This document shows positions 27,336-45,977 of a DNA stretch of 64,000 bases, in pieces. Made by a program: the position numbers and the translations under genes. This DNA comes from Acidithiobacillus sp. HP-2 (GTDB taxonomy: Bacteria > Pseudomonadota > Gammaproteobacteria > Acidithiobacillales > Acidithiobacillaceae). Under the pieces are notes generated by a model that did no database searches, was not told where the DNA came from, and worked only from the letters and a program-made list of their open reading frames with translations. The stretch spans positions 62,001 to 126,000 of the forward strand of contig NZ_JACKZA010000008.1 of NCBI RefSeq assembly GCF_015100155.1, given 5' to 3'. Every line of letters starts with the position of its first letter. The stretch's first letter is position 1.

Positions 27336-27920
27336 TTAATTTTTTGCGCGTCCAGCCCCAGTCGCCTCTGGCACCTCAACTAACTTCCCATTGTGCACGT
27401 CAAAGATGTATCCGTAGATTGGAATATCTGAAGGTACCAGCGGATGATGACGAATGCGTCGCACATCTTCCAGAACACTTGGCTCCTGTTTATCAATGGT
27501 GAGCCACTTAATGTAATCGCCTTCAGTAGAGCCGCCACCACCACCGGCATCATGCCAGCCACTTGCGTCAATACTTGCCGGGTTAAGACTGCTGTGCAAA
27601 AGGTCACACATAATCTTGTCTGTGAAGGTTTGCATGCCACAATCCGTATGGTGGATAACGAACCATTCTCGCGTGCCTAATAGTTTGTAGGAGATCACTA
27701 AAGAACGGATGGCATCATCACTTGCTCTCCCCCCAGCATTACGGATGACATGGGCGTCACCTTCGGCTAGACCCGCATACTTTGCCGGGTCCAAGCGGGC
27801 ATCCATACAAGTCAAAATGGCAAACCTACGACCAGGAGGCATGGGAAGATTGGCCTTGTCTCCAAAATTGTTGGCATATGCACTATTCGCTGATAAAACC
27901 TCATCATTGATTTTGCTCAT
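27336..27920 (-). CDS. Beta-class carbonic anhydrase
   Basis: Zinc enzyme interconverting CO2 and bicarbonate, 194 residues from the ATG at 27920; the upstream open frame to 27998 lacks family sequence. Ligands are visible: Cys38 with the Asp40-Arg42 dyad ([11 protein letters not shown]), then His91 and Cys94 ([10 protein letters not shown]). [17 protein letters not shown] is the usual core. No signal peptide, so cytoplasmic. It lies about 4 kb from the form II RuBisCO operon and 1 kb from a SulP-transporter pseudogene; carbonic anhydrases are commonly paired with SulP bicarbonate transporters. Supply of CO2 to RuBisCO is a reasonable inference. Confidence 0.92.
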
Positions 27921-28271
27921 GATTAATAACCTCCGTATCAAGTGCGAAACTACATTTGATTGTTTTAATATTTCTGTTTTCTTATAACACGATGACACAT
28001 GGAGTATAGATCAAGAATTTTAAAATTGTTTTATGCAGCTTTATTGCATAAAAAACTAATGAAAAAAGCAGTTAATTAAATAATAATTAAATAAAACTGA
28101 CGAAAGGATTAACGTGAGCAGTTTTTGAGGAGGTATGGAGGTATATTTAATTAAGACGGAATGCGCTATTCTGTCTCGTTGGCAGCAAACTCTGAACGAC
28201 AGATCGCCCAGTATTACTCAGTTCTTTTGTCACCCAGGAGGACCGATTATGGGACATTACGGCAACCGTAC
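27921..28271. other. Intergenic region upstream of carbonic anhydrase
   Basis: About 350 bases. The part next to the carbonic anhydrase (27930-28100) is very AT-rich with repeated TTAATTAAATAATAA-like sequence and probably contains its promoter. A plus-strand open frame from 28135 runs into the complement of the DUF29 pseudogene and is a shadow. No RNA gene or repeat recognised. Confidence 0.4.
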
Positions 28272-30355: not shown

Positions 30356-31144
30356 ATGAACCATCCCGCACAGTCCCAATATCCTACGGCTAAAAATTCA
30401 GAGGATAGCCATCAGAACGAGCCCATCGTCCAGGAAGATTATCGGCTGGTAACGCTCGGGTTCGACTATTCAGCAACGCAAAGCATGATGTATAAGCGCG
30501 ATCCGGATTGTCTCGTTCTGGGCTATACCCGAACCATGATGGGATTTCTGCTGTTTCACCCCAAACCCAAATACATTGCCATGATTGGTCTGGGGGGTGG
30601 GTCGATTGCCAAATATTGCCGGCGTTATCTACCCGACGCGCAGTTTACGGCGGTGGAAATTAATCCGGAGGTGATTGCATTGCGTGACCGCTTTCACATT
30701 CCACCGGATGGTCCCGGTTTTCAGGTGCTCTGCGCTGACGGTGCCGAGTATGTCAGAAAAAATCTAAAAACCAATGATGTTCTTTTGCTAGACGGTTTCA
30801 ATCGTGATGGTCAAGCCGAAGAATTATGTACTACCAGCTTCTATGACCATTGCTATGCCAACCTGCGCAATTACGGTGTACTGGTGGTCAATTTGCTCAA
30901 TAGTGATACGCGGATGGATGCCTATATCAGTCGTATTCAGACCAGCTTTGATGATCAGGTCATCGTCGTGGATGCCGAAAAATCCGGCAACAAGATTCTC
31001 TTTGCATACAAGGGGGATCAATTTCCACGGCTAGCCAGGAAAATATCCGAAAGGGCGCGGAGGATGAGTGCATTGCATGATGTTTCCCTGAATAGTACGG
31101 CCCACAAAATGATCCAAAAATTCAGTCGGCTATACGTGTTGTGA
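30356..31144 (+). CDS. Spermidine-synthase-like Rossmann methyltransferase-fold protein
   Basis: A 262-residue protein with the SAM/dcSAM-binding core of spermidine synthases: YIAMIGLGGGSIAKYCRR (GxGGG motif near residue 82), AVEINPEVIALRDRFHI, VLCADGAEYVRKN. The catalytic loop is unusual: polyamine synthases have an acidic D-S/T-T/S-D-P segment, here DGFNRDGQAEELCT. The gatekeeper region therefore differs, and aminopropyl transfer cannot be assumed; a methyltransferase or unknown activity is as likely. It lies tail to tail with cbbR, and its link to the cbb cluster is only positional. Confidence 0.7.
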   Translation: MNHPAQSQYPTAKNSEDSHQNEPIVQEDYRLVTLGFDYSATQSMMYKRDPDCLVLGYTRTMMGFLLFHPKPKYIAMIGLGGGSIAKYCRRYLPDAQFTAVEINPEVIALRDRFHIPPDGPGFQVLCADGAEYVRKNLKTNDVLLLDGFNRDGQAEELCTTSFYDHCYANLRNYGVLVVNLLNSDTRMDAYISRIQTSFDDQVIVVDAEKSGNKILFAYKGDQFPRLARKISERARRMSALHDVSLNSTAHKMIQKFSRLYVL

Positions 31145-31182: not shown

Positions 31183-32109
31183 TCAGTTGATAATTTGTCC
31201 CTGCTCTTCGATGGTTCTGACATATTGATGCTGCAGTAGAAACTCTTTAAATGCCTGCGGTGCAGGGGCCAGATGCTTGCCTTTGCGGTGCACCAGATGC
31301 CAGGCTCTCTGCAAAGGAAACCCCTCCACAGAAAGTTCGCGCAGATAACCTGCTGCTATTTTTACCACGACACTGTGGCGCGCGAGAAAACCAATCCCCA
31401 TACCAACGGTCACAGCCTGTTTGATGGATTCATTACTGTCCATGATCACCCCTTCCTTGATATGCAATCCCTGTTCGGAAAAATAGCGCAATACGGTCTC
31501 CCGCGTTCCCGATCCAGGCTCCCGCAACACAAAGGGTTCCTTAACAATTTCAGCTTGCGGGATGTTTTTTTGCCAAGCCATGGGATGATTGGACGAAGCA
31601 ACCAGAATCAGATAATTACGATGAAAGGGCAGGGCAACCAGGTCCAGCGCCGGAGACGGCTCGCCCATGATGGCCATGTCTACGTCATTGCGTTCGAGCC
31701 CCGCGAGGACGTCTTTGCGGTTGGCAATGTTTAAATGGATTTTGACCCGGGGATGTTTATTCAAAAATCGGGAAAGCAATTCCACGGCAAAAGCATTAGC
31801 GGTGGAGGTCACGGAAATGCGTAGTAGTCCGTCTTCTATATCCCGTAAATGCTCCAGAGAGCGTTTCAGGTTTTCCAGTTCTGTACCGATTAGTGCGCCG
31901 GTGCGGAGAACCTGTGCTCCGGCATCGGTCAGATAGACTTTTTTGCCGACCTGCTCGGTTACGGGTAAACCAATTTCCTGTTCGAGTTTGCGCACTTGCA
32001 GATAAACCGCAGATTGGGTGAGATGCAACTGGTTGGCGGCTTTCGTGTAGGATCCAGTCGCTTCTACCATGCCCAGAATCTCCAGTTGGCGCAAGGTCAT
32101 GTTTCTCAT
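31183..32109 (-). CDS. cbbR: CbbR, LysR-type regulator of CO2 fixation genes
   Basis: A 308-residue LysR protein with N-terminal winged helix TLRQLEILGMVEATGSYTKAANQLHLTQSAVYLQVRKLE in parts, and an effector domain with the CbbR-like DMAIMGEPSPALDLVALPFHRNYLILVAS in parts. The adjacent divergent cbbM gene supports CbbR identity strongly. The ATG at 32109 has GGAG 8 bases upstream. It shares a 138-base intergenic region with cbbM that contains a T-N-A type dyad. CbbR proteins respond to metabolites such as RuBP, ATP or NADPH; which one here is unknown. Confidence 0.9.
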   Translation of the reverse strand: MRNMTLRQLEILGMVEATGSYTKAANQLHLTQSAVYLQVRKLEQEIGLPVTEQVGKKVYLTDAGAQVLRTGALIGTELENLKRSLEHLRDIEDGLLRISVTSTANAFAVELLSRFLNKHPRVKIHLNIANRKDVLAGLERNDVDMAIMGEPSPALDLVALPFHRNYLILVASSNHPMAWQKNIPQAEIVKEPFVLREPGSGTRETVLRYFSEQGLHIKEGVIMDSNESIKQAVTVGMGIGFLARHSVVVKIAAGYLRELSVEGFPLQRAWHLVHRKGKHLAPAPQAFKEFLLQHQYVRTIEEQGQIIN

Positions 32110-32247: not shown

Positions 32248-33627
32248 ATGGACCAGTCCTCACGTTATGCCGATCTCTCTTTGCGCGAAGAAGATCTGAT
32301 CGCCGGTGGCAAGCACATACTGGTTGCCTACAAAATGAAACCCAAAGCAGGATATGGCTATCTTGCATCAGCTGCGCACTTTGCGGCGGAATCCTCAACC
32401 GGAACCAATGTGGAAGTATCGACTACAGATGATTTCACCAAGGGCGTGGATGCTCTGGTTTATCACATTGACGAGGCCACTGAGGATATGCGTATTGCCT
32501 ATCCTATGGAACTGTTTGACCGCAACATTCTCGACGGGCGCATGATGATTGTGTCCTTTCTCACGCTGGCTATCGGTAATAACCAGGGCATGGGGGATAT
32601 TGCGCATGCCAAAATGATCGATATCTTTTTCCCGCCCCGGGCGATACAACTCTTTGATGGTCCTGCCAGGGATATTTCTGATTTATGGCGGATTCTGGGT
32701 CGGCCCATCAAAGATGGCGGTTATATTGCCGGCACCATCATCAAGCCGAAACTCGGCCTGCGGCCGGAACCCTTTGCGGAAGCCGCTTATCAGTTCTGGT
32801 TGGGCGGTGATTTCATCAAGAACGATGAGCCTCAGGGAAACCAGGTGTTTTCTCCCTTGAAAAAAACCATTCCGCTGGTTGCCGATGCGATGAAGCGTGC
32901 CATGGACAAGACCGGGCAGCCCAAGCTGTTTTCCGCCAATATCACGGCCGATGATCATTATGAAATGTGTGCCCGTGCTGACTATATTCTCGGTATTTTT
33001 GGTCCTGACGCTGATAAAGTGGCCTTTCTCGTGGACGGTTTTGTCGGTGGTCCCGGCATGATCACGACCGCACGTCGCCAATATCCCGGCCAATATCTCC
33101 ATTATCACCGGGCCGGACATGGCATGATCACCTCACCCTCAGCCCTGCGTGGATACACCGCTTTCGTGCTGGCTAAAATTTCCCGTCTGCAGGGGGCATC
33201 CGGCATCCACGTCGGTACCATGGGGTACGGCAAGATGGAAGGCGAAAATGACGATCGCAACATCGCTTACATGATTGAACGCGATGAGTGTCAGGGTCCG
33301 GTGTACTACCAGAAGTGGTATGGCATGAAACCCACTACACCGATCATTTCTGGTGGCATGAACGCACTGCGCCTGCCCGGATTTTTCGAGAATCTGGGCC
33401 ACGGTAACGTGATCAATACTGCCGGCGGTGGTGCTTATGGTCACATCGACAGCCCGGCGGCCGGAGCCATCTCCCTGCGTCAGGCCTATGAATGCTGGAA
33501 AGCCAAAGCGGATCCTATTGAATGGGCCAAGGAGCACAAGGAGTTTGCGGGTGCTTTTGCGTCCTTCCCGCAAGATGCGGATCAACTTTACCCGGGTTGG
33601 CGGGATAAAGTCGGTGTGCATCGATAA
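32248..33627 (+). CDS. cbbM: Form II ribulose-1,5-bisphosphate carboxylase/oxygenase
   Basis: Carboxylase of the Calvin cycle, 459 residues, the usual form II length. Active-site residues are in the Rhodospirillum-like positions: Lys166 in [10 protein letters not shown] and the carbamylated Lys191 with its acidic neighbours in [11 protein letters not shown]. Also visible are [10 protein letters not shown] and [14 protein letters not shown] (RuBP-binding loops). Form II enzymes have low CO2 specificity and suit high-CO2 or low-O2 conditions. AAGGAACGGAGC precedes the ATG. The divergent cbbR and downstream cbbQ and cbbO complete the operon; a strong stem-loop separates cbbM from cbbQ. Confidence 0.97.
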
Positions 33628-33664: not shown

Positions 33665-33710
33665 AGGCCGAAATCTCGCCGTTCGCAGATTTCGGCCTGT
33701 TTTCTTTTTG
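33665..33710 (+). terminator. Terminator or attenuator after cbbM
   Basis: Perfect 12-base-pair stem AGGCCGAAATCT / AGATTTCGGCCT with a 10-base loop, followed by GTTTTCTTTTTG. This is a good intrinsic terminator. As cbbQ starts 37 bases later, it probably lets most transcripts stop after cbbM, giving far more RuBisCO than activase. Confidence 0.8.
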
Positions 33711-33746
33711 CGTGGTTCCAGCTACCGCTGGAATGGAGATCTGCAC

Positions 33747-34559
33747 ATGAATCCTGGTAATCCGGTATACGATTACATGGTCAACAAGGAACCTTATTAT
33801 CATCCTCAAGGGGATGAGATTGTCCTGTTTACCGCAGCCTATGCCCGGCGCTTGCCGGTCATGATCAAAGGCCCCACGGGCTGCGGCAAATCCCGATTCG
33901 TGGAATACATGGCCTGGAAACTGGGCAAGCCCCTGATCACGGTGGCTTGCAATGAAGATATGACCGCTGCAGATCTGGTGGGCCGCTGGCTCCTGGATGC
34001 AGAGGGGACCCGCTGGCAGGATGGTCCCCTCACGGTGGCGGCTCGCTATGGTGCCATCTGCTATCTGGATGAAATTGTCGAAGCCCGACAGGATAGTACC
34101 GTGGTCATCCACCCCCTGACTGACCATCGTCGCCAGCTCCCGCTGGACAAAAAAGGGGAACTGATTCAGGCGCACGCCGATTTCCAGCTGGTGATTTCCT
34201 ACAATCCGGGATATCAGTCCTTGATGAAGGACCTCAAACAGTCCACCAAGCAGCGTTTCGCCGCTTTTCGCTTTGATTATCCGGAAACAAAGGTGGAAAC
34301 AGAAATCCTGGTCCGTGAAGTGGGTATTCCTGAACAGACTGCGGAACAACTGGTTGCCCTGGCCAAAAGTTCCCGTAACCTGAAAGGACATGGCATGGAT
34401 GAAGGAATATCGACACGCTTGCTGGTTTACGCAGCATCTCTCATTGCCGATGGGGTGCCCGCAACACGCGCCTGCCGGATGGCGCTGATGGACCCGATTA
34501 CGGATGATGAGGACATACGCAGCACACTGGAGCATGCCATCGATGCCACCTTCAACTGA
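33747..34559 (+). CDS. cbbQ: RuBisCO activase AAA+ subunit CbbQ
   Basis: A 270-residue MoxR/NorQ-type AAA+ ATPase. Walker A is GPTGCGKS; Walker B is AICYLDEIVEA; KQRFAAFRFDYP and a sensor Arg follow. The ATG at 33747 has GGAG upstream; the frame is open to 33708 but lacks family sequence. With CbbO, CbbQ forms an activase that frees RuBisCO from bound sugar phosphates. Its 3' end overlaps cbbO by 17 bases. Confidence 0.93.
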   Translation: MNPGNPVYDYMVNKEPYYHPQGDEIVLFTAAYARRLPVMIKGPTGCGKSRFVEYMAWKLGKPLITVACNEDMTAADLVGRWLLDAEGTRWQDGPLTVAARYGAICYLDEIVEARQDSTVVIHPLTDHRRQLPLDKKGELIQAHADFQLVISYNPGYQSLMKDLKQSTKQRFAAFRFDYPETKVETEILVREVGIPEQTAEQLVALAKSSRNLKGHGMDEGISTRLLVYAASLIADGVPATRACRMALMDPITDDEDIRSTLEHAIDATFN

Positions 34560-36822
34560 CGCAGAAACCGGGTCAGCGATTCCGCCCGACGAGGACTACT
34601 GGCGGCGTCATCTGGACTGTGCTTTTAGCTCAGTGCAGGCGGTTTTTGCGGACTGCTTCACGATTGCCGGTGCGCAGTGGCAGGAGCAGGAATTGTTCGC
34701 TTATGTAGATGCTGCCCGCTTTTTGTGCAAATTGGGGCGGGGTGCCGAGCCGGTGATGGCCTTTCTGGAAGGCTGGCCGGAAGTGGTCGCTGCTGCCGGT
34801 CACGACTGTATCGATCCGGTTTTGCAGTGGGTGGCGAAAATCCAGCGTTCGCCCAATGGTGATGTTATCGGATTGTTTTTCCAGACGCTTCCTGCCGTTA
34901 CCCGGGCTTTGCCCAACCAGACGCTGCTTCGCGACTATCTCGATTTGCTGACGGATATTGCCGAGCGCAGCAGCACCTCCATCCATGGCCGCCACGCCAT
35001 TCTCCCCAGCCGTGCCTTGCCTGAATTCATTCGCCTGGCGGCCGAACTCCTGCAAAAGGTGAATCTGGAGGGACTGCAGACCTGGGCAGAATACGGGTTG
35101 CGCTATTATGCCAGTAACCCCGAACGTCAGGCGGATTATTTTGCCCTGCAAAGTGCAGACAGTCGGGCCATTTTTCAGGAACAGCGCGACGGTACCCTGC
35201 TGCGCACCCACGAGCGTGAGATGGACCTCTATCTGCGCGCCCTCTGGGATGAACCCGCCATGCTGGTTCCTTATTCGGAAGCTTTTGATCATCTGCGTCG
35301 GCCCCAGCCTTACCTGGATTCCCTGGGTATGCATCTGCCGGACCTGTACCATGATCGGGAGGGTATATCGGGCCTGGATCAATACCGTCTGGCCCTCGCC
35401 CATCTTGCCGCCCATCGCCGCTACAGTCAGGCGCTTCTTGCCGATAACTGGAGTCCCTTTCAGCGCTTATACATCGAATATTTTGAAGATGCGCGCGTGG
35501 ACACCCTGATTTTGCGGCGTTTTCCAGGTCTGCGGGCGCTGATGCTGCAATTACATCCCCATCCTCAGGAAGAGGCCTGCGATTCCGGACAGGAATCCTG
35601 CGTACGTCATCGTCTGACCCTGTTTTCCCGGGCCATTCTCGATCCTGAGCATGGTTACCAGAACCCCGTTCTCCGGCAATTTGTGCAGCGCTTTCACGAG
35701 CAAATGCTGAACAGCTCGGGCAGTACCCGCAGCATTGCGGAACTCGCCCTGGAATATCTCATTCAGACACGCCTGCCGAGTGACAGTTTTGCCAGGGTTC
35801 ATTTTACCGATACGGAAGTGTCCTACCGGGATGACAACCGCCACCTCTGGCAGTTCATTGATGGAGATCAGGAAAGCGAGGAGGAAAGCAGCCGGGCCGA
35901 AGCGGTATCGGAAAACGAATTGACGCTGGTCCGGCACTATCCCGAGTGGGATTACCGATCGCAACATTACCTACCGGATTGGGTCAGTCTCTACGAGCAT
36001 CTGCATCCACAAGGTTCTGCCAGCGATATCCTGCAGATATTGCAGAAACACGCTGCTTTGGCCAAGCGTCTTGAACGGCTGCTGGATATGCTGAAACCGC
36101 AGGATCGCGAACGCCTGCGCCGTCAGGAAGAAGGATCCGACCTGGATCTGGACTGGGCGCTGCGTTCCTGGGTAGATTATCGCTGCCGACAGAATGTCGA
36201 TCCGCGCATCAACGAAAGTTTCCGCCACGCCCGAAGGAACCTTTCGGTGAGTCTGCTGCTGGATCTTTCCGAATCGCTGAATGATCCGGTTGAGGGTACA
36301 GGCTCAGGACCTACCATCCTTTCCCTGGCCCAGGAAGCCGTTACACTGCTAGCCTGGGCGATTGACCGCCTGGGTGACCCCTTTGCCATTTCCGGCTTTT
36401 ATTCCAACACCCGTCATGAGTTGCGCTACTGGCATATCAAGGGATTTTCTGAACCTTGGCAGGATGCAGTCTACGCACGGCTCGCAGCGCTCCGTGCCGC
36501 CTATTCTACGCGCATGGGTGCGGCCTTGCGTCACGCCGGACACTATCTGTCCGGTCAATCTGCCGACAAGCGCCTGCTGCTGATCCTGACCGATGGACAA
36601 CCGGCCGACATCGATGTGGATGATCCGGATTACCTGCTGGCAGATACCCGTCGCGCCGTTCTGGAGCTGGAGGAGAAGGGCATTTTTTGCCATTGCATCA
36701 GCCTTGATCCGCATGCAGACGAATACGTACGAAAAATTTTTGGCAATCGATTCAGCATTATTGATCGGGTTGAATCGTTGCCGGAAAGATTGCCGGAGAT
36801 TTTTTTAAGCCTGACACGGTGA
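34543..36822 (+). CDS. cbbO: RuBisCO activase adaptor CbbO (VWA domain)
   Basis: A protein of about 759 residues. The ATG at 34543 has GGAG 10 bases upstream; starts at 34504 and 34534 are also in frame. The N-terminal three quarters are helical and family-specific. The C-terminal VWA domain has the MIDAS motif SVSLLLDLSESLND (D-x-S-x-S) and RLLLILTDGQPADIDVDD. CbbO binds RuBisCO through its VWA domain and is moved by the CbbQ hexamer. Length and domain order match complete CbbO proteins. No terminator hairpin of the ordinary kind follows, only the palindromic element at 36834. Confidence 0.92.
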   Translation: MPPSTDAETGSAIPPDEDYWRRHLDCAFSSVQAVFADCFTIAGAQWQEQELFAYVDAARFLCKLGRGAEPVMAFLEGWPEVVAAAGHDCIDPVLQWVAKIQRSPNGDVIGLFFQTLPAVTRALPNQTLLRDYLDLLTDIAERSSTSIHGRHAILPSRALPEFIRLAAELLQKVNLEGLQTWAEYGLRYYASNPERQADYFALQSADSRAIFQEQRDGTLLRTHEREMDLYLRALWDEPAMLVPYSEAFDHLRRPQPYLDSLGMHLPDLYHDREGISGLDQYRLALAHLAAHRRYSQALLADNWSPFQRLYIEYFEDARVDTLILRRFPGLRALMLQLHPHPQEEACDSGQESCVRHRLTLFSRAILDPEHGYQNPVLRQFVQRFHEQMLNSSGSTRSIAELALEYLIQTRLPSDSFARVHFTDTEVSYRDDNRHLWQFIDGDQESEEESSRAEAVSENELTLVRHYPEWDYRSQHYLPDWVSLYEHLHPQGSASDILQILQKHAALAKRLERLLDMLKPQDRERLRRQEEGSDLDLDWALRSWVDYRCRQNVDPRINESFRHARRNLSVSLLLDLSESLNDPVEGTGSGPTILSLAQEAVTLLAWAIDRLGDPFAISGFYSNTRHELRYWHIKGFSEPWQDAVYARLAALRAAYSTRMGAALRHAGHYLSGQSADKRLLLILTDGQPADIDVDDPDYLLADTRRAVLELEEKGIFCHCISLDPHADEYVRKIFGNRFSIIDRVESLPERLPEIFLSLTR

Positions 36823-36833
36823 ATGCCTTCATC

Positions 36834-37030
36834 CTAAAAACGGCAGTTGCCGTGGGTGCTTTTTGCTCCGTTGTTCCTCGCCTGTTGTTCTAGGGCTCAT
36901 CCTGCTGTCAGGGGAGAACTCGCCCTGCGGGCTCAGACAGCTCTCCTGACGGGCGCAGGATTTCGCCAATAACAACAACGGCTCAAAACAAAAGTCGCTG
37001 CAAAGCACCCACGGCAACTGCCGTTTTTAG
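36834..37030. repeat. MITE-like palindromic element between cbbO and the hyf-like operon
   Basis: A 29-base perfect terminal inverted repeat (36834-36862 and 37002-37030; ends CTAAAAAC...GTTTTTAG) encloses 139 bases that also pair imperfectly (ATCCTGC-TGTCAGGGGAG against CTCTCCTGAC-GGGCGCAGGAT). CTTCAT occurs just outside both ends (36827-36832 and 37031-37036), like a target duplication with one extra base on the left. There is no coding capacity. The RNA could fold as one long hairpin and separate the two operons transcriptionally. Confidence 0.75.
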
Positions 37031-37044
37031 CTTCATACGTTAAT

Positions 37045-37061
37045 ATGGACACGCCGTCCAT
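37045..37061. promoter_or_regulatory. Candidate operator of the XRE-cupin regulator
   Basis: ATGGAC-ACGCC-GTCCAT inverted repeat 20 bases before the regulator start; an overlapping GTCC-N8-GGAC (37056-37071) extends it. The position over the probable promoter of the whole regulator-hyf unit suggests autoregulation. Confidence 0.5.
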
Positions 37062-37081
37062 TTTAACGGACAATCCGGGGC

Positions 37082-37627
37082 ATGAAACAGCTTGCTCAAC
37101 GTTTGCGTCAGCTTCGCGAAGACCGACAACTTTCCCTGCGTGCCCTGGGAGAAATGGCCGGGGTCTCTTCCAGTGCGCTATCCCAGATTGAAGCTGAGCA
37201 GGTTTCCCCCTCCATTGCCACGCTTGAGAAAATTTGCACCGCATTGGGGCTCAGGATTGCCGCACTCCTGGATGAACCGGATAGTGAAGCATCCCCGCTC
37301 ATTCTCCGTGCCGGACAAAGACGTCGGGTCTATAGTTCAGGGTCGCATGCCACGATTGAACCACTGGCACGAGGATTTTCCCAAAAAAAAATGCAACCGC
37401 TGCTGGTCACGCTGGATGCAGGTGGAGAATGTGGAGACCACCCTTACAGCAGTGCCGATGGGGAAGAGTTCGCCATGCTCATCAAGGGAAGCGCGCGCTT
37501 TGAACAGCAAGGTTCCAGCTTTGATCTGGATGAGGGGGATGCCGTCTACTATGACCCGCGTCTTTCCCATAACTGGCATAATTTGCATGAATTGCCATCC
37601 GTGCTTTTGATTGTGGTGGCGCAATGA
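37082..37627 (+). CDS. XRE-family regulator with C-terminal cupin domain
   Basis: A 181-residue protein: HTH at residues 1-60 (QLSLRALGEMAGVSSSALSQIE) and cupin domain from about 95 (LVTLDAGGECGDHPYSSADGEEFAMLIKG, then LDEGDAVYYDPRLSHNWHN). Such proteins sense small ligands, often metabolites, through the cupin barrel; the ligand is unknown here. Its TGA overlaps the start of the first hyf-like gene as ATGA, so regulator and complex are one translational unit. A dyad lies just upstream of its start. Confidence 0.88.
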   Translation: MKQLAQRLRQLREDRQLSLRALGEMAGVSSSALSQIEAEQVSPSIATLEKICTALGLRIAALLDEPDSEASPLILRAGQRRRVYSSGSHATIEPLARGFSQKKMQPLLVTLDAGGECGDHPYSSADGEEFAMLIKGSARFEQQGSSFDLDEGDAVYYDPRLSHNWHNLHELPSVLLIVVAQ

Positions 37628-39615
37628 ACTCCGGCGACTGTCTGCTTTGGGTCTTGTATGCGTCACTGTTGGCTCTGTTGCCGACAGTGCTGGTAGCGAT
37701 TCCCGCATTGCCAATCCGCTGGAAACGTTCCCTGGGTTTTCTGCTGACCGTTGCATTTTGCCTGCTACTCATCGTGGTCGGCATACATGCGCTGGCAAGC
37801 CCTGCGCTCCATGCAAGTATCCCGGGGCCACTCACCGATCTTGCCTGGCAATTTACCCTCGACCCGCTCTCCGGTTTTTTTCTGTTGGTGCTGGGATCCG
37901 TAGGTTTTGCAGCGTCCTTGCATGCTATCGGCTATTTCTATCATGGCAGCCAGAGCAAGCTGAAACAGGTGCTATTGCCTTATCCGGTTTTTGTGACGGC
38001 CATGGTTTGGGTATTGCTGGCAGCCAATGCCTACACATTCCTTGTGGCCTGGGAACTGATGGCCCTGAGTTCAACATTTCTTATCCTGGTCGAAGGCCAG
38101 GACCAGCGTCGGCAACAAGCCGCCTATCTGTATTTACTGATCGCGCATATCGGTGCCCTGGCCCTTTTTGTCGCTTTTGCCTTGCTGAGTCATGGTGATC
38201 TGATCAGCAATGGGAATTTTCAGCGCATGGCACAATCGCCCTATTCTCCTGTGGTCGCCAATGCGGTTTTTGGCCTCACCTTGCTGGGCTTTGGTGCAAA
38301 ACTGGGGCTTCTGCCACTTCATGCCTGGCTTCCAGAGGCGCATCCGGCGGCGCCATCGCCGGTTTCGGCACTGATGAGTGGGGCCATGTTGCCCGTTGCG
38401 GTCTATGGCCTGCTGCGGATTGACTGGCAAATTCTTCCGGCGGGCGCGGGGTGGTGGGGTCCGCTTTGGCTGGGACTGGGTTTAAGCTCTGCACTTTTTG
38501 CCGTTTTGTATTCGGCATTGCAAACCGACATGAAGCGGCTGCTGGCTTATTCCTCCATGGAAAATATGGGACTCATCCTGATCGCTCTCGGTCTTTCCCG
38601 AATTTTTGCGGAGCAGGCACTATGGTCCCTGGCCGCTCTTGCGTTGGTAGCGGGTTTATTTCAAGTGCTGAATCACGCTTTTTTCAAGAGCTTGCTTTTT
38701 CTGGGAAGCGGCAGCGTTCTGCACGCTACAGGCACCCTGGAAATGTCCCATTTGGGTGGCCTGATTCGTTCCATGCCGCAGACGGCTTTTCTGGTGCTCA
38801 TTGGCATTTTTGCCCTTGCCGGATTGCCGCCGTTGAATGGTTTTGCTTCGGAATGGCTGTTACTTCAGGCCTTCCTGTTGGCCCCCAGCTTGCCATCAGG
38901 AATGCTGCGGGCCATTCTTCCCCTGGCCGCCGCAGGCGTGGTGCTGGTTACTGCTGTGGCGGCTTTTGCCATCGTCAAATTTTACGGGATCGCTTTTCTG
39001 GGGCGGGCGCGTAGTGCGGTCGCCAAACAAGAGGCAGGAATCTGGGAGCGCGCCAGCATGGCCTTTTTGGCCCTGTTCTGCGTCCTGCTCGGTGTGTTTC
39101 CGGGCCGCGTAGTAGACAGTTTGTCGCACATAACGGCTCTGTTGTTACATGGCAGCCAGATAGCCCACCAAAGCGCGCTGGCGCTCACGCCGATTTCGGC
39201 GCAGCGGGCCAGTTATCTCCCCGGCGTTTTTCTTTTGGGAATCGCACTGTCCATTGCGGTCGTTTTTGTACTGGTTTGGTGGCGTTTCGGTCGCTCCCTG
39301 CGCCGTGCCCCCGTATGGTCCTGTGGTTTTGCAGCAGATTATAGTGCCCAAACACAAGACAGTCCGACCGGTTTCAGCCAGCCTCTGCTTAGAATTTTTG
39401 GCGTTTCCTTAAGCACGCTCAGAAACCGCCAGGGCGGGAGAAACACCCTCCCGGTGCAAATTCCTGATCCTTTCTGGAAAGGTTTTTACCTGCCCTGGGG
39501 TCGTGTCACCCTGTGGATTGCCGAAGGGATCAGCAGATTACAGCATGGTCGCATCACCTCTTATCTGCTGTATTCTTTTCTGACCCTGATTGTCCTTCTG
39601 GTGTTTTTTCGGTGA
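37624..39615 (+). CDS. hyfB: HyfB/NuoL-type antiporter-like membrane subunit
   Basis: Polytopic protein of 663 residues of the Mrp/NuoL family, closest in type to hydrogenase-4 HyfB and HycC. LPLHAWLPEAHPAAPSPVSALMSGAMLPVAVYGLLR in parts and LLAYSSMENMGLI are the conserved proton-channel helices with Lys/His residues. The start overlaps the XRE-cupin gene. It would form a proton-pumping arm of the complex. The same family includes DabB of the DAB carbon-uptake system and NdhF of the cyanobacterial NDH-1 CO2-uptake complexes. Confidence 0.88.
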   Translation: MNSGDCLLWVLYASLLALLPTVLVAIPALPIRWKRSLGFLLTVAFCLLLIVVGIHALASPALHASIPGPLTDLAWQFTLDPLSGFFLLVLGSVGFAASLHAIGYFYHGSQSKLKQVLLPYPVFVTAMVWVLLAANAYTFLVAWELMALSSTFLILVEGQDQRRQQAAYLYLLIAHIGALALFVAFALLSHGDLISNGNFQRMAQSPYSPVVANAVFGLTLLGFGAKLGLLPLHAWLPEAHPAAPSPVSALMSGAMLPVAVYGLLRIDWQILPAGAGWWGPLWLGLGLSSALFAVLYSALQTDMKRLLAYSSMENMGLILIALGLSRIFAEQALWSLAALALVAGLFQVLNHAFFKSLLFLGSGSVLHATGTLEMSHLGGLIRSMPQTAFLVLIGIFALAGLPPLNGFASEWLLLQAFLLAPSLPSGMLRAILPLAAAGVVLVTAVAAFAIVKFYGIAFLGRARSAVAKQEAGIWERASMAFLALFCVLLGVFPGRVVDSLSHITALLLHGSQIAHQSALALTPISAQRASYLPGVFLLGIALSIAVVFVLVWWRFGRSLRRAPVWSCGFAADYSAQTQDSPTGFSQPLLRIFGVSLSTLRNRQGGRNTLPVQIPDPFWKGFYLPWGRVTLWIAEGISRLQHGRITSYLLYSFLTLIVLLVFFR

Positions 39616-39636
39616 ATACAAGAGGGCGAGGCTTCA

Positions 39637-40587
39637 ATGACTAGTCTGATTGGCTGGCGGGATCAATGCTTCCAGATCCTTTTTGTCGTCGCGGCGGCTC
39701 CACTTCTGGCGGGTTGGCTGCAGACGGTCCGGGCACTTTTGCAAAATCGGCGTTCTGCAGGGATTCTCCAGCCCTATCGTGATCTTTTTCGACTGTTTCA
39801 TAAGGAAACCCTGATCCCTGAACAATCTTCCTGGCTGTTTCAGTTTTCACCCTATGTCATGTTCGGAGCCAAGATCATGGCGGTGGCCATCGTGCCCATC
39901 ATTGCCAATGGCTTGCCTCTGGCCAGTGCCGCCGATGTCATTGCGCTGGTGGGTCTGCTGGCCGTGGCGCGCATTTTTCAGGTGCTGGCGGCCATGGATA
40001 CGGGAACAGCTTTTGGCAGTTATGGGGCGCATCGTGAAATGCTGATTTCCGCATTGGCAGAACCGGCCTTACTGGCGGCACTGTTTACCGCCTCTTTATT
40101 GGCCCGATCCACATCGCTTGTGCAGATTGTTCATCTGAGTCAAATACAGTTATTTTCCATTCATCCCAGCATGGTTTTTGCCGCCATCGCATTTGGCTTT
40201 GTTCTGCTCGTAGAAAACGCCAGAATTCCGGTGGACAATCCGGCAACGCACCTCGAACTGACCATGATTCACGAAGCGATGGTGCTGGAGTATTCAGGGC
40301 GGCACCTGGCACTGCTCGAATGGGCGGCACAACTCAAGCTGTTTTTATATATGACCATTGGTTTCGCCCTGTTCCTGCCCTGGGGAATTGCTGCAAAACC
40401 GTCGCTGACAAGCCTGGTCATTGCTGCAGGACTGGTTCTCGTCAAACTTTTTTTTGCGGTTGTGGTTCTGGCGCTGATTGAAACCTTACTGGCAAAAAAA
40501 CGGCTTTTTCGGGTCCCTGAGTTCGCCATCACCGGCTTTCTTTTCGGGGTCATCGGGCTATTGAGTCACTTCATGCTGGGGTCATGA
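39637..40587 (+). CDS. hyfC: HyfC/NuoH-type membrane subunit
   Basis: A 316-residue membrane protein with about eight hydrophobic helices. The conserved loop after helix 5 reads ARIPVDNPATHLELTMIHEAMVLEYSGRHLALLE in parts, typical of HycD/HyfC, which link the hydrophilic module to the pump module and hold acidic residues of the proton path. It starts 21 bases after hyfB and its stop overlaps hyfE. Confidence 0.9.
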   Translation: MTSLIGWRDQCFQILFVVAAAPLLAGWLQTVRALLQNRRSAGILQPYRDLFRLFHKETLIPEQSSWLFQFSPYVMFGAKIMAVAIVPIIANGLPLASAADVIALVGLLAVARIFQVLAAMDTGTAFGSYGAHREMLISALAEPALLAALFTASLLARSTSLVQIVHLSQIQLFSIHPSMVFAAIAFGFVLLVENARIPVDNPATHLELTMIHEAMVLEYSGRHLALLEWAAQLKLFLYMTIGFALFLPWGIAAKPSLTSLVIAAGLVLVKLFFAVVVLALIETLLAKKRLFRVPEFAITGFLFGVIGLLSHFMLGS

Positions 40588-41270
40588 TCATGCATTCCAT
40601 TCTTGCCCATAGCGCGATTATCAGCCCCGTGTTGAGAATTCTCGCGGCCTGGATGTTGGTACTCAGTTTCGCCCTGCTTGCGCAAAGACGGCTGCTGAGT
40701 CTTATTCGCCTGCTTGCCTGGCAGGGGGTCACCCTGGCGGTGGGTACGGCCCTCGTCGGGCAGTTGACGGGTGATCCCGTCCTCTGGGTTTCGGCAGTGT
40801 TGACCTTGTCCATCAAGGGGATTCTCATGCCCTATGTGTTGCATTACCTGTTGCGCCGTCTGCAGGTGCGCGGTGATGTCGAGATGACGCTCAATGTCCC
40901 TAGTACGCAACTGCTGGGTATTTTGCTGGTGGTATTTGCATTTTCCATTGCTGCCCCTCTGGATGGATATTTGCCTGCCGCGACGCATGGCATGCTGGGG
41001 ATTGCCCTGGCCGCATTTTTGCTGTCGTTCCTGATGATGATTACCCGCCGCAAGGCAATCTCCCAGATCGTGGGCTTTCTGGCCATGGATAACGCCCTGT
41101 TTTTCGCCGCCACCAGTGCAACACTGGGGATGCCGCTGATCGTCGAATTGGGTATTGCCCTGGATACCCTGATCGGGTTGGTGGTGATTGGCGTCTTTTT
41201 CTTTCAGATCCGCGACACTTTCGACAGTCTCGATCTGCATTATCTGGAACATATCCGGGAGGATAAATGA
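40584..41270 (+). CDS. hyfE: HyfE-type membrane subunit (NuoK-like N-terminal part)
   Basis: A 228-residue protein with about seven hydrophobic segments, related to HyfE. It includes the acidic NuoK-like stretch, and a C-terminal helix carries IRDTFDSLDLHYLEHIREDK. HyfE is found in hydrogenase-4 but not in hydrogenase-3, so the complex is of the hyf kind. The start and stop both overlap neighbours by 4 bases (ATGA). An ATG at 40590 is an alternative start. Confidence 0.85.
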   Translation: MIMHSILAHSAIISPVLRILAAWMLVLSFALLAQRRLLSLIRLLAWQGVTLAVGTALVGQLTGDPVLWVSAVLTLSIKGILMPYVLHYLLRRLQVRGDVEMTLNVPSTQLLGILLVVFAFSIAAPLDGYLPAATHGMLGIALAAFLLSFLMMITRRKAISQIVGFLAMDNALFFAATSATLGMPLIVELGIALDTLIGLVVIGVFFFQIRDTFDSLDLHYLEHIREDK

Positions 41271-42721
41271 TCATCTTCTGGGTGCTGGTTCTGGCTGGTG
41301 CCGGAGTTCCCTTACTGGCGTTTTTGGGCAGCGGGCGACGCGGAGCCAGACTGTTTCTGCTGCTTAATTTTCTGGTGTTGATCGCCTGTGTGGTTATGTC
41401 CGTGCAGGTGGCTACCCAGGGCATCATCCGGGCAGGCGGCGATGAATTCCGGGTGGACGCCTTTTCCCTGTTACTGGCACTGGTCAACAGTACGGTCGGC
41501 TTTTCCATTGCCTGGTTTTCACACAGCTACTTTCTGAAAGAAGTACAGCATCATGGCTTGTCCGCAGGGCAACAAAAGCTGTACCACAGTATGTTCCAGC
41601 TTTTTCTATTTACCATGTTGCTCGCTGTGCTCACCAACAACATGGGGATTCTCTGGGTGGCTCTGGAAGGGGCGACCCTGTCCAGTGTGCTGCTGGTCAG
41701 TCTGATGCGTAAGCCGCAAGGTCTGGAGGCCGCATGGAAATACTTCATTCTCTGTGGCGTCGGACTCGCCATGGCGCTGTTGGGAACGGTGTTACTGTAT
41801 TTTGCGGCGGAACCCGCGCTGGGTGCAGGCAGTGATGCCTTACTTTGGTCACAACTGCATGCCCATTCTGCCGCGCTCAATTCCGGGGTGCTGACCATTG
41901 CCTTTATTTTTGTGCTCGTGGGCTTTGGAACCAAGGTTGGTCTGGCCCCCCTGCACAGCTGGTTGCCGGATGCCCATGCGGCGGGTCCGAGCACCGCATC
42001 CGCCGCTTTATCTGCCTTGCTGCTGAACGTGGCGCTGTATGCCATCCTGCGTTTTAAAAGTCTCCTGTCCGGCCCTGTGGCCGGGCCTTTCGCGGCGCAT
42101 CTGCTGATGGGCTTCGGTCTTCTGACCCTGTTGCTTGCTGCCTTTTCCATGTTTCGGCAACAGGACGTCAAACGTCTTTTTGCCTACTCTTCCATGGAGC
42201 ACATGGCACTGATCACTTTTGCTTTTGGTTTGGGCGGTCCGCTGGCGATATTTGCGGGTATGCTCCACATGCTGGGACATAGTCTGGCAAAGTCCTCGGT
42301 ATTTTTTGCTACCGGGCAGGCCAGCCAGGAAGCCGGCACTCAGGACATTTCCGCACTGAACGGCTTGCTGCATTCCCGGCCCGTCCTGGGCTGGAGTGTG
42401 CTCCTGTCGGTGCTGGCGATTCTGGGTATGCCTCCGGGTTCTCTGTTTTTTAGTGAAATTCTGATTCTTGCCAGTGCGGTACAACAATCCTGGCAAAGCG
42501 TGCCTTTTCTGCTCGTCGGCCTGGGTACCGTATTTGCGGCAATATACCCGCGCCTGCAGGCCATGCTCCTGGCCCCCGCCAATTCCCTCCCCAACCGGCA
42601 AAGCGGGGTAGGCGGGCTTTTGCCGGTTTTTTTTCAAATATCCCTGGTGGTGATTCTGGGGGTGGCGATCCCCGGGCAAATAGAGCTATGGCTGCATGAC
42701 GTTGCAGGAATTGTCCAATGA
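41267..42721 (+). CDS. hyfF: HyfF-type antiporter-like membrane subunit (NuoN/NuoM family)
   Basis: A 484-residue second antiporter-like subunit: LAPLHSWLPDAHAAGPSTASAALSALLLNVALYAILR in parts and LFAYSSMEHMALITFAFG carry the conserved Lys, His and Glu residues of the proton channels. The complex thus has two pump-type subunits (HyfB and HyfF); a HyfD homologue is absent. The stop overlaps the next start (ATGA). Confidence 0.88.
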   Translation: MIIFWVLVLAGAGVPLLAFLGSGRRGARLFLLLNFLVLIACVVMSVQVATQGIIRAGGDEFRVDAFSLLLALVNSTVGFSIAWFSHSYFLKEVQHHGLSAGQQKLYHSMFQLFLFTMLLAVLTNNMGILWVALEGATLSSVLLVSLMRKPQGLEAAWKYFILCGVGLAMALLGTVLLYFAAEPALGAGSDALLWSQLHAHSAALNSGVLTIAFIFVLVGFGTKVGLAPLHSWLPDAHAAGPSTASAALSALLLNVALYAILRFKSLLSGPVAGPFAAHLLMGFGLLTLLLAAFSMFRQQDVKRLFAYSSMEHMALITFAFGLGGPLAIFAGMLHMLGHSLAKSSVFFATGQASQEAGTQDISALNGLLHSRPVLGWSVLLSVLAILGMPPGSLFFSEILILASAVQQSWQSVPFLLVGLGTVFAAIYPRLQAMLLAPANSLPNRQSGVGGLLPVFFQISLVVILGVAIPGQIELWLHDVAGIVQ

Positions 42722-44277
42722 CTGCACCTGACTCTGAAGCTTTATCATCTATGGGCCAGTGGCAACAAATTCTGACTGCGCCACCCGTCTGGCGGGTCAA
42801 GGTGCAGGCTGCATCCTGGACAAGCGCTGCGCTGGCGCTACGCGATCAGGGCGGGCGTTTGCTGGGATTGTGGGGAGAGGCGGGCCACGAGAACGCATTC
42901 TTTTACATACATGCGCTGGGCCTTGGTTCAACCGGATATGTGTGGATCACTCTGACGGTGCAATCCGGCGAGGGACAATTTCCCTCGCTGGCCGACATTT
43001 TTCCCGCTGCTTCGCGGATGGAGCGGGCCCTGTACGATCTTACGGGAATCAGAGCGACGGGGAATGCGGATACCCGGCCATGGCTCCGCCATCAGTGCTG
43101 GCCAGCAGGGATTTTTCCACTGCGGGAAGGTCAACTGGATGGCAGATCCTTCGGCGTGGATGGCGATGCCGATTATCCTTTTCAATTGATTGATAGCGTG
43201 GATGTCCACCAGATTCCAGTGGGGCCGGTACACGCGGGCACCATTGAACCCGGACACTTTCGTTTTTCGTGTATCGGTGAACAAATCCTCCGTCTTGAAG
43301 AACGATTGGGGTACACCCACAAGGGCGTCGAGCGCCTTTTCCAAGATCGGGATGTATTTGCGGGTGCGCGTCTGGCAGGACGCATCAGTGGTGACACCAC
43401 AGTGGGTTATGCCTGGGCCTACAGCATGGCGGTGGAATCCATTGCCCGATGCGAAATCCCGCCTCGTGCAGCCGCCTTGCGTGCTGTTTGCCTGGAACGG
43501 GAGCGCATGGCCAACCATCTGGGTGATCTTGCCGCTCTGGGAAATGACGCTGGCTTCGCCTTCTGTCAGTCACAATTTCTGTTTATCAGGGAAAGCCTGC
43601 TGCGCGAAAACCAGGAAATTTTCGGACACCGCTATTTGATGGACTGCATTATTCCCGGTGGTGTCGCTTTTGACTTGAACTCGGCGCAAATAGCCGCGAT
43701 TCAGCGTAACAGTGAATCCTGGCAACGCACAGTGCAACGCCTGGATCTCCTCTTGCAGGAGCATTCCGGTCTGCGGGATCGCCTGGTGGGTACAGGAAAA
43801 ATTGTGCCACCCCGTGCTGCAGCACTCGGTATGGCGGGGCTTGCCGGCCGCGCCAGTGGTCAGGCCTGGGATTTGCGGGTCCAGTTTCCCCACACTCCTT
43901 ATCAGAATCTGGACGTTTCCATCCAGCTTTCCCAAGAGGGCGATGTGGCCGCACGCTGGCAATTACGCTTTCGGGAATTCTATGAGTCTCTGCGTCTGCA
44001 GACCCGGTTGCTGATGGAACTGCCCGAGGGAGCAGTCAGCACAACCATTCCGGAAAGCATCCCCGATGGCGAAGGCTTGGGCATCGTCGAAGCCTGGCGC
44101 GGCGAGGTGTTTGTCGCACTGTCTGTGGAAAACGCCCGTATTAAACGCTGCCATCCCCACGATCCATCGTGGACCCTGTGGCCGGTTCTTGAGGAGGCCG
44201 TGCTGAACGATATTGTTGCTGATTTTCCCCTGATCAATAAATCGTTCAATTTGAGTTACAGCGGACATGATTTATAG
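42718..44277 (+). CDS. hyfG: HyfG-like large subunit lacking all NiFe-site cysteines
   Basis: A 519-residue NuoC-NuoD fusion of the HycE/HyfG type. The NuoC-like part covers residues 1-150 (FPSLADIFPAASRMERALYDLTGI in parts); the NuoD-like part starts DVHQIPVGPVHAGTIEPGHFRF. Group 4 hydrogenases have an N-terminal C-G-I-C and a C-terminal D-P-C-x-x-C. Here these are S-G-D-T (224-227, in GRISGDTTVGYAWAY) and N-L-S-Y-S-G (511-516), with no cysteine at any of the four ligand positions. The protein also ends right there, with no cleavable C-terminal extension, and no Hyp maturation genes are in the window. It cannot hold NiFe; it may act like NuoD, with another substrate at the pocket. Confidence 0.9.
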   Translation: MTAPDSEALSSMGQWQQILTAPPVWRVKVQAASWTSAALALRDQGGRLLGLWGEAGHENAFFYIHALGLGSTGYVWITLTVQSGEGQFPSLADIFPAASRMERALYDLTGIRATGNADTRPWLRHQCWPAGIFPLREGQLDGRSFGVDGDADYPFQLIDSVDVHQIPVGPVHAGTIEPGHFRFSCIGEQILRLEERLGYTHKGVERLFQDRDVFAGARLAGRISGDTTVGYAWAYSMAVESIARCEIPPRAAALRAVCLERERMANHLGDLAALGNDAGFAFCQSQFLFIRESLLRENQEIFGHRYLMDCIIPGGVAFDLNSAQIAAIQRNSESWQRTVQRLDLLLQEHSGLRDRLVGTGKIVPPRAAALGMAGLAGRASGQAWDLRVQFPHTPYQNLDVSIQLSQEGDVAARWQLRFREFYESLRLQTRLLMELPEGAVSTTIPESIPDGEGLGIVEAWRGEVFVALSVENARIKRCHPHDPSWTLWPVLEEAVLNDIVADFPLINKSFNLSYSGHDL

Positions 44278-44304
44278 CGCTTCAGCACCCGGAGGATATT
44301 GGCA

Positions 44305-44781
44305 ATGTATCGCATACTGAAAGAAATCTGGCGACTGGGGATACCGGGCAAAAAAATCATTCCCGCCAAAGGGCAGGGACCATTCCGCCGGAGTGCCGCC
44401 ATTCGCCATGTGGATGCAGGATCCTGCAATGCTTGTGAGCTGGAAATTCAGGCACTTTCCGGTCCACATTACGGCTTGGAGCAAGTCGGGTTGAACCTGA
44501 CCGCGTCGCCGCGCCATGCTGATTTATTGATGGTAACCGGCCCGGTTAGCCGACATATGGCGACGGCGCTGCAAGACACATTTTCAGCCATGCCAAATCC
44601 CAAAAAGGTGGTAGCCATAGGGGATTGCGCCTGTACGGGAGGCATATTCGCCGGGAGTTATGCCGTTGTGGGCGCTGTAGAAAAGGTGCTCCCCGTGGCT
44701 GGGCAATGTCCGGGCTGCCCACCTACACCCGAAGCGATTCGGCAAACATTGGTTCAGGTAGCCCGGCAGACACGATCCTGA
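44305..44781 (+). CDS. hyfI: HyfI/NuoB-type small subunit with intact 4Fe-4S cluster ligands
   Basis: A protein of about 158 residues. The ATG at 44305 has GGAGG 9 bases upstream; the frame is open to a TTG at 44299. Cluster ligands are present: Cys41 and Cys44 (DAGSCNACELEI), Cys108 (AIGDCACTGG) and Cys138 in the final QCPGCPP. These are the four ligands of the proximal cluster of group 4 hydrogenases (N2 in complex I). So an electron-carrying cluster is kept next to a large subunit without NiFe. It is the last gene of the unit; no ferredoxin-type subunit (HyfA or HyfH) is present. Confidence 0.9.
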   Translation: MYRILKEIWRLGIPGKKIIPAKGQGPFRRSAAIRHVDAGSCNACELEIQALSGPHYGLEQVGLNLTASPRHADLLMVTGPVSRHMATALQDTFSAMPNPKKVVAIGDCACTGGIFAGSYAVVGAVEKVLPVAGQCPGCPPTPEAIRQTLVQVARQTRS

Positions 44782-45294: not shown

Positions 45295-45687
45295 TCACAG
45301 CCAAAGTGTACGAATGGGATACTGCCTGATAGCGGGGTCAGGGGTGACCAAGGTCAGTCCACGTTCGATGGCCTGACAAATCAGCATGCGGTCGAAAGGA
45401 TCCCGATGAATGGGCGGTAGTTGCGGAAGATGACGCAGGTCGGTATCCGACAGCGCTATGCGTCGAAAATCCACTGCCTCGATTTGGCGGAGCATATAGT
45501 CAAAAACCGATTCGGAACCGCTTTCGATAATCAGCTTGCCGCTCGTGTGCTTCACCAGAATTTCCCAAATGGTGACCACGCTTATACAAACCTCCATATC
45601 CTCGGCGATATGGCTGCGCGCAGTAGCCAGAATCTTTTCTGTCTGTGCCAACCACCAGATCAGGGTACAAGTATCCAGCAGCAGCAT
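45295..45687 (-). CDS. vapC: PIN-domain ribonuclease toxin (VapC type)
   Basis: A 130-residue PIN protein with the acidic catalytic residues in place: LLLDTCTLIWW (first Asp), VVTIWEILVKHTSGKL (Glu), and HRDPFDRMLICQAIERGLTLVTPD with the conserved D-P-F-D-R-x-L and final Asp. VapC toxins cleave RNA, often tRNA. The start overlaps the antitoxin stop by one base. Confidence 0.9.
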   Translation of the reverse strand: MLLLDTCTLIWWLAQTEKILATARSHIAEDMEVCISVVTIWEILVKHTSGKLIIESGSESVFDYMLRQIEAVDFRRIALSDTDLRHLPQLPPIHRDPFDRMLICQAIERGLTLVTPDPAIRQYPIRTLWL

Positions 45688-45977
45688 CAGGTTTTGTCCG
45701 GTGTTGTCCCGAGCTGCAGCGGATCATTTCGATGGGTGTCATACCAATCGGCCAGCTCCGCGTCGGACAAGGGAGCAAAGGCATCTTCGGCCCAATGTAT
45801 TTTACCTTTAGCCAAGCCCATGGGCCGACTTTTCTTGGCCGGGATGGTTGCCGAAATCGGTCGCAACTCGGCAATCGCCTTGTTACGACGGGCAATAATC
45901 ACGGTCTCGCCTCGCTCTACCTTGCCGAGGTATACGGATAGCTGGGCTTTCACTACATGAATATTCACCACTTCCAT
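45687..45977 (-). CDS. vapB: Phd/YefM-type antitoxin of the PIN toxin
   Basis: A 96-residue protein with the Phd/YefM N-terminal DNA-binding domain (VNIHVVKAQLSVYLGKVERGETVIIARRNKAIAELRPI in parts). A longer acidic C-terminal part (WAEDAFAPLSDAELADWYD) would wrap the toxin. It is encoded first, coupled to the toxin. An intact pair in an otherwise decayed region, which is a common persistence pattern of addiction modules. Confidence 0.88.
   Translation of the reverse strand: MEVVNIHVVKAQLSVYLGKVERGETVIIARRNKAIAELRPISATIPAKKSRPMGLAKGKIHWAEDAFAPLSDAELADWYDTHRNDPLQLGTTPDKT

Follow-up and report, generated by a model that had tools for sequence, protein, structure and literature searches.

Energy-converting-hydrogenase-related (Ehr) complexes have been described as a class (PMC6349859, PMC10284858), defined by subunits resembling those of group 4 hydrogenases without the Ni/Fe-coordinating residues (PMC6349859). 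In Acidithiobacillus, the cluster hyfBCEFGI, or 'fdh-mhy', has been reported several times; Valdes et al. (2008) assigned AFE2149-54 to the group 4 hydrogenases, with a proposed link to formate (PMC2621215), the 2018 A. thiooxidans pan-genome study found the motifs SGD[TS] and NLSYSGHDL throughout Acidithiobacillus and raised the possibility of a novel complex (PMC6002666), and HydDB is stated not to class the cluster as a hydrogenase (PMC7735108). The same six genes were described as an incomplete hydrogenase-4 operon in Cupriavidus (Rmet_4666-4671 and H16_A2196-2201; PMC2864759), and a hyfBCEFGI operon was reported in Nitrospira (PMC5596200). Here, the hyfBCEFGI cluster of Acidithiobacillus sp. 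HP-2 was analysed within a stretch of 64,000 nt (the window; GCF_015100155.1, NZ_JACKZA010000008.1, positions 62,001-126,000, forward strand), taken from a genome (G000) rated 100% complete. The cluster combines group-4-like subunits without Ni/Fe ligands with Mrp antiporter-like subunits, the two features of Ehr complexes, and it probably encodes a NiFe-free, ion-coupled oxidoreductase of that kind.

All six hyf open reading frames were present and intact in the window (37624-44781):

37624..39615, plus strand: hyfB, NuoL/M-like antiporter subunit, 663 aa (Pfam PF00361; NCBIfam NF005086, 'hydrogenase 4 subunit B', above cut-off)
39637..40587, plus strand: hyfC, NuoH-like subunit, 316 aa (Pfam PF00146; alignment)
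40584..41270, plus strand: hyfE, HyfE/NuoK-type membrane subunit, 228 aa (NCBIfam NF008556 below cut-off; alignment with E. coli HyfE)
41267..42721, plus strand: hyfF, second antiporter-like subunit, 484 aa (Pfam PF00361; NCBIfam NF005045 above cut-off)
42718..44277, plus strand: hyfG, fused NuoC/NuoD-like large subunit, 519 aa (Pfam/NCBIfam; alignments; AlphaFold model)
44305..44781, plus strand: hyfI, NuoB-like small subunit with four [4Fe-4S] ligands (Pfam PF01058; Cys alignment)

A first-pass annotation of the window had described six overlapping genes of these types; the subunits and their order stood, and the overlaps held only in part, since hyfC, hyfE, hyfF and hyfG overlap one another, hyfB overlaps the XRE-cupin regulator gene upstream by 4 bp, and short gaps separate hyfB from hyfC and hyfG from hyfI. 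The start of hyfI is most likely the ATG at 44305 rather than the TTG at 44299, judging from homologue starts and the start-codon region. When E. coli queries were used in tblastn, no match to HyfA, HyfH, HyfJ, HycI, HypA-E or NuoI was found in the window, and HyfD matched only the two antiporter subunits already counted, in agreement with the earlier statement that no HyfA/HyfH, HyfD or Hyp gene is present.

The alignment of HyfG with E. coli HyfG/HycE revealed S-G-D-T at positions 224-227, where the E. coli proteins carry C-G-I-C, and N-L-S-Y-S-G at 511-516 opposite D-P-C-Y-S-C, and the chain stops where the hydrogenase is cleaved, a point beyond which the E. coli protein continues with a further extension. 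This bore out the claim that the four Cys ligands of the NiFe centre are replaced and the C-terminal extension is absent. The loss of these motifs is already known for Acidithiobacillus (PMC6002666). A scan of 84,980 species genomes recovered 301 relatives, and conservation was scored on 115 distinct sequences, counting invariance where the alignment column was present. None of the 115 held the four-Cys ligand set, and single Cys residues occurred at position 224 in 5 sequences, 227 in 1 and 513 in 3. The earlier question of whether the replacements are conserved could thus be answered: the ligand set is missing throughout, and all relatives have in common an invariant set of their own (R222, D226, H267, D270, D277, R305, N507, K508, S509, N511, Y514, G516 and D518), most of which differs from E. 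coli HyfG. The replacement motifs fill two HyfG clades, with the endings NLSYSGxDL and VNGSYSGxDL, respectively. No Cys/His ligand set of the Zn-type carbonic anhydrase kind was invariant among these sequences.

The AlphaFold model of HyfG, a single chain predicted with 39 family sequences as input (pLDDT 84.7, pTM 0.89), had E. coli HycE as its nearest solved fold (7z0s_E, TM 0.89), followed by NuoCD, and the nearest relatives by sequence among solved structures were HycE, then MBH and then NuoD. HyfG also carries the hydrogenase-type GPVHAG-EPGHFR loop. At the positions aligned with the Asp (bovine-D160-type), Tyr and His of the complex I quinone site, the Asp is kept as D277, the Tyr is replaced by G225 and the His by I176. 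In HyfI, the C-x2-C motif and two later Cys provide the four [4Fe-4S] ligands, as the first-pass annotation had noted, and the tandem Cys-Cys of N2 type found in NuoB is absent, with CxxC in its place. Both HyfB and HyfF keep the TM5 Glu, the TM7 Lys, the H338/K342-type pair and the TM12 Glu, and HyfC shows the family form PATHLELTMIHEAM-LEYSG of the FD-AEAEQEL-EG-EYSG loop.

The comparison with E. coli hydrogenase-4 and formate hydrogenlyase (Hyf, Hyc; 7z0s) reveals common subunit types B, C, E, F, G and I and apparently the same HyfG fold, as far as the model (TM 0.89) can tell, but the cluster described here is devoid of NiFe ligands, of HyfA/D/H/J and of a cleaved tail. The 2x[4Fe-4S] subunit of HyfH/HycF type, a component of group 4 hydrogenases, is missing in the window. 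Maturation of a [NiFe] hydrogenase requires HypD for the NiFe(CN)2CO centre. No hypD was found in the genome of the window, and a hand count found it missing from 25 of 44 hyf-positive genomes in the class-wide sample (369 genomes, 44 with hyf and 325 without). Therefore, no [NiFe] hydrogenase can be matured by this host, and identity as such an enzyme was rejected on the absence of both the Cys ligands and hypD, as the earlier reading had held.

Nor has the cluster decayed recently. The dN/dS values across the six genes ranged from 0.02 to 0.16 in comparison with the close species G006, and since that of HyfG was 0.14 and the motif change is common to the whole family, the change is not attributable to chance. 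It is true that broken copies exist, namely a hyfE with an insert of ~1.1 kb in G017 (L042:11554-12658), a hyfB with an insert of ~1.5 kb in G003 (L048:3425-4966) and a frameshifted hyfE in G028 (L050, about 8503), as would be expected of a hydrogenase-4 heading for loss. However, purifying selection, the invariance of the replacement site in the 115 sequences and the absence of any four-Cys relative nested inside the HyfG family led to the rejection of this explanation, whose probability is practically negligible. Restored-cysteine nearest relatives, which the first-pass annotation had named as the sign of recent decay, were not found, and decay is excluded for the family.

In the comparison with Ehr complexes, the same group-4-like large and small subunits and Mrp/NuoL-like membrane subunits are found and NiFe ligands are absent, whereas hyfBCEFGI comprises only six genes, lacks a ferredoxin-type subunit, presents its own invariant site and shows a RuBisCO linkage in one bacterial family. 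Since the ion-coupling parts and the one-cluster part are kept, both known catalytic sites have been lost and another set of residues, polar in nature, is strictly conserved, we infer a complex driven by redox chemistry or by the proton gradient. A soluble electron carrier would dock straight onto HyfI, from which an electron could pass to, or be received from, a small substrate in a HyfG pocket formed by the region of D226, D270, D277, H267, K508 and N511, a grouping drawn from homologous positions and not from model coordinates. HyfC and HyfE would then relay the energy between this reaction and proton movement in HyfF and HyfB. For Acidithiobacillus, the expectation is that the complex runs on the cell's large natural proton gradient and is expressed together with form II RuBisCO, and supply of Calvin-cycle reductant or redox balance would be its most likely role, rather than CO2 carriage. 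Several points weigh against such an oxidoreductase: one cluster and no ferredoxin subunit leave no obvious electron route; the RuBisCO adjacency could equally well fit a carbon role; the broken copies mean that the complex is dispensable in those strains; and in H2-grown A. ferrooxidans, where CbbM was the most abundant RuBisCO, no subunit of the hyf cluster was detected (PMC7735108). It is possible, though doubtful, that this widespread complex I relative has put a new polar or non-Cys metal site (D226, D270, D277, H267, K508, N511) in the place of the NiFe site and catalyses a reaction new to the superfamily, having been recruited in Acidithiobacillaceae to feed form II RuBisCO with CO2/bicarbonate or with reductant driven by the proton gradient.

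The genes that accompany the cluster in the window are as follows:

31183..32109, minus strand: cbbR-type LysR regulator gene, divergent from cbbM (sequence; kept beside cbbM)
32248..33627, plus strand: cbbM, form II RuBisCO (Pfam PF00016/PF02788)
33708..34559, plus strand: cbbQ, RuBisCO activase AAA+ subunit (Pfam CbbQ_C)
34504..36822, plus strand: cbbO, RuBisCO activase VWA-type subunit (weak VWA match; order with cbbQ kept)
36823..37081, no strand: intergenic region between cbbO and the XRE-cupin gene (terminator-like hairpins at 36840 and 37011, promoter-like site at 37046)
37082..37627, plus strand: XRE-cupin regulator gene, between cbbO and hyfB (Pfam HTH_3 and Cupin_2)

The hyf genes had been placed directly after cbbM-cbbQ-cbbO, which required correction, because the XRE-cupin gene (37082-37627) intervenes and overlaps hyfB; this gene precedes hyfB in most Acidithiobacillaceae modules. 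The counts of hairpins and promoter-like sites in the intergenic region were near chance for the region, being suggestive only. The gap between cbbO and the XRE gene is ~260 bp in the window and ~46-49 bp in three lineages with the same gene order (G017, G025/G022 and G026), where it is compatible with one transcript. A carbonic anhydrase gene does lie in the window (27336-27998, opposite strand), ~4 kb upstream of cbbM, but its described nearness amounts to ~10 kb from hyfB, and it is not at the same place in the closest relative. A spermidine-synthase-like gene (30356-31144) was observed upstream of cbbR, with homologues near hyf in 14 of 80 loci (Cupriavidus, Paraburkholderia and Pseudogulbenkiania), and a PIN-domain gene and a Phd/YefM-type antitoxin-like gene lie on the opposite strand just downstream of hyfI (45295-45977).

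Among the 31 genomes of Acidithiobacillales sampled, this HyfG was present in 18, and RuBisCO genes adjoined hyf in 15 of the 18 Acidithiobacillaceae modules, in three gene orders and with form I included. Seven genomes presented cbbM-Q-O followed by XRE-hyfBCEFGI (type 1), six presented hyfBCEFGI followed by cbbM-Q-O (type 2; some split over contigs), and in two (G019/G020) hyfBCEFGI was beside cbbR and form I cbbL with Q-O. As for the three unlinked modules, G002 kept only cbbR, that of G004 ended at a contig edge and G028 had no such gene nearby. Form II RuBisCO and hyf were associated in the order (14/15 against 4/16, p 0.0002, kinship not corrected). In the HyfG tree, the sequences of the order formed one clade (93/98) subdivided by gene arrangement, and therefore the RuBisCO adjacency has outlived at least one rearrangement. 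A type-2 hyf-cbbMQO block was also observed in L061 (JAGDVQ010000181.1), a metagenome-assembled genome (MAG) labelled Thiomonas, with its HyfG inside the Acidithiobacillus clade; the block's presence there could be due to mis-binning, a wrong label or gene transfer. The A. ferrooxidans locus tag of cbbM, AFE_2155 (PMC6458275), directly follows the numbers AFE2149-54, so that the annotation already showed the two to be adjacent. The accessible sections of PMC2621215, PMC6002666 and PMC7735108 discuss neither the RuBisCO linkage nor the family outside the genus. No paper discussing the RuBisCO-hyf link was found in a search that was thin on subscription literature, which leaves novelty unproven, and the papers found for the H16_A/Rmet and AFE locus tags were genome papers only.

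Outside the order, an independent linked case was found in G385, where cbbM (87%), cbbQ and cbbO are followed in a row by a regulator gene, one more gene and hyf; its HyfG is distant and belongs to the second clade. A looser case is G338, with form I cbbL ~6 kb from hyf in opposite orientation. When the best 80 of the 301 relatives were used for loci, with neighbourhoods of up to 10 kb on each side, cbb genes were found in these neighbourhoods in none of the ~70 loci outside the Acidithiobacillus group, so that the conserved linkage to carbon fixation genes, which had been put forward as a check, held within Acidithiobacillaceae and in G385 and failed elsewhere. The unlinked loci include Cupriavidus, Paraburkholderia, Herbaspirillum, Rhodoferax, Nevskia and Rhodanobacter, with heterotroph genera among them. 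The Cupriavidus operon consists of the same six genes and its HyfG belongs to the same family in the tree, whereas no RuBisCO neighbour was seen at the Cupriavidus loci examined. Clusters of these six genes with no HyfA/HyfH are met repeatedly in the family, and they stand alone in many genomes. The only conserved neighbours outside Acidithiobacillales were a small protein that we take to be ribbon-helix-helix-like (23 of 80 loci) and housekeeping synteny such as that of metG and panBC; these names are our reading of the sequences and not the result of a family search. Across the 369 genomes of the class, RuBisCO did not co-occur with hyf (23/44 hyf-positive against 159/325 hyf-negative genomes, Fisher p 0.75). 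Outside the order, the co-occurrence of cbbM and hyf was mild (13/64 against 30/304, p 0.03, kinship not corrected), and 1 of the 13 genomes with both was linked, a lower bound, since most others have them on separate contigs. Co-occurrence with cbbM or carbonic anhydrase, also proposed as a check, was thus seen for cbbM in the order and mildly outside it, and was not seen for RuBisCO overall; the carbonic anhydrase gene was not conserved nearby.

These distributions bear on the proposal that the proton gradient drives CO2 hydration or bicarbonate import for RuBisCO, as in the DAB pump or the cyanobacterial NDH-1MS. The linkage in Acidithiobacillaceae and G385, the mild cbbM association and antiporter subunits related to DabB and NdhF speak for it, and NuoL-type subunits are indeed common to the three systems; but the hyf cluster lacks DabA or ChpXY and has an Fe-S redox arm, whose conserved ligands imply redox chemistry. 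Moreover, hyf is widespread without cbb linkage, also in heterotroph genera; RuBisCO in general does not co-occur with it; no Cys/His Zn set is invariant in HyfG; hyf subunits went undetected in the H2-grown A. ferrooxidans cells rich in CbbM (PMC7735108); the carbonic anhydrase adjacency is not conserved; and cbbM transcripts go up, not down, with CO2 (PMC6458275). No ChpXY/Cup CO2-hydration protein (PF10216) was found in the genome of the window, whose sole DabA (PF10070) lies on another contig (G000:C46:90036-93011). A known component of an energy-coupled inorganic-carbon pump is therefore available to this host already, which also speaks against the proposal. That DabA was observed ~13 kb from form I cbbL, and DabA occurs in 28 of the 31 genomes of the order. 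A carbon-supply complex is therefore unlikely, and as a general role the CO2/bicarbonate supply of the first-pass annotation did not survive; its ion coupling is probably right, and the redox-driven pump that it offered alongside fits better.

A small quinone-linked complex I, in which the altered HyfG site binds quinone and electrons are exchanged with a soluble carrier, is rather doubtful. Pfam and NCBIfam put HyfG and HyfI nearest NuoD and NuoB, the HyfG fold matches NuoCD, and complex I (NuoB, CD, H, K, L/M/N) has a homologous core, the pump residues and the D160-type Asp in common with the cluster, which nevertheless lacks the NADH arm, a NuoI-type subunit, the tandem Cys pair and the quinone Tyr and His, and bears the hydrogenase-type loop. 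Intact pump residues and the loss of both known catalytic sites would also suit a non-redox proton or cation transporter whose Fe-S arm merely senses the redox state or holds the fold; this is quite improbable, given that more than ten invariant polar HyfG residues fit binding or catalysis better than a remnant. Finally, a formate-linked complex similar to formate hydrogenlyase (FHL), proposed for A. ferrooxidans in PMC2621215 and PMC7735108 and favoured by homology to FHL, is very unlikely, as fdhD is missing from the genome of the window and from 26 of the 44 hyf-positive genomes, and none of the genes flanking the cluster in the window was seen to encode formate dehydrogenase.

Other Hyf-like clusters were observed in the course of the analysis. 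The genome of the window has a second NiFe-less one, in the order C-E-F-G-I-B (G000:C22:132000-151900, equivalent to L056:6198-13541), in which HyfI is fused to a 2x[4Fe-4S] ferredoxin-like domain and the large subunit carries VSGVGSAC / FGLTIAGCDR, and G001 has two clusters of this second type in tandem. In Rhodoferax MAGs (L110:12481-18009, L126:13370-15769), a divergent Hyf-like cluster is convergent to the family cluster, and its large subunit ends in DFPICNKSFDLSYCGNDL.

The hyfBCEFGI complex is widespread and well conserved, and a CO2-supply role is possible but not well supported. Members of the family bear the annotation 'hydrogenase 4' or 'formate hydrogenlyase', so that H2 metabolism may easily be ascribed, wrongly, to Acidithiobacillus, Cupriavidus and other genera. 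The RuBisCO linkage offers a concrete testable phenotype, and Cupriavidus necator H16, with the same six genes, is a tractable host (PMC2864759). The complex is a small conserved complex I relative with one cluster, and the identity of its putative substrate would inform the relationship between complex I and hydrogenases. Of greatest interest are the strict conservation of the non-NiFe site, in a complex both widespread and misannotated, and the repeated occurrence of this complex next to RuBisCO in acidophilic autotrophs.

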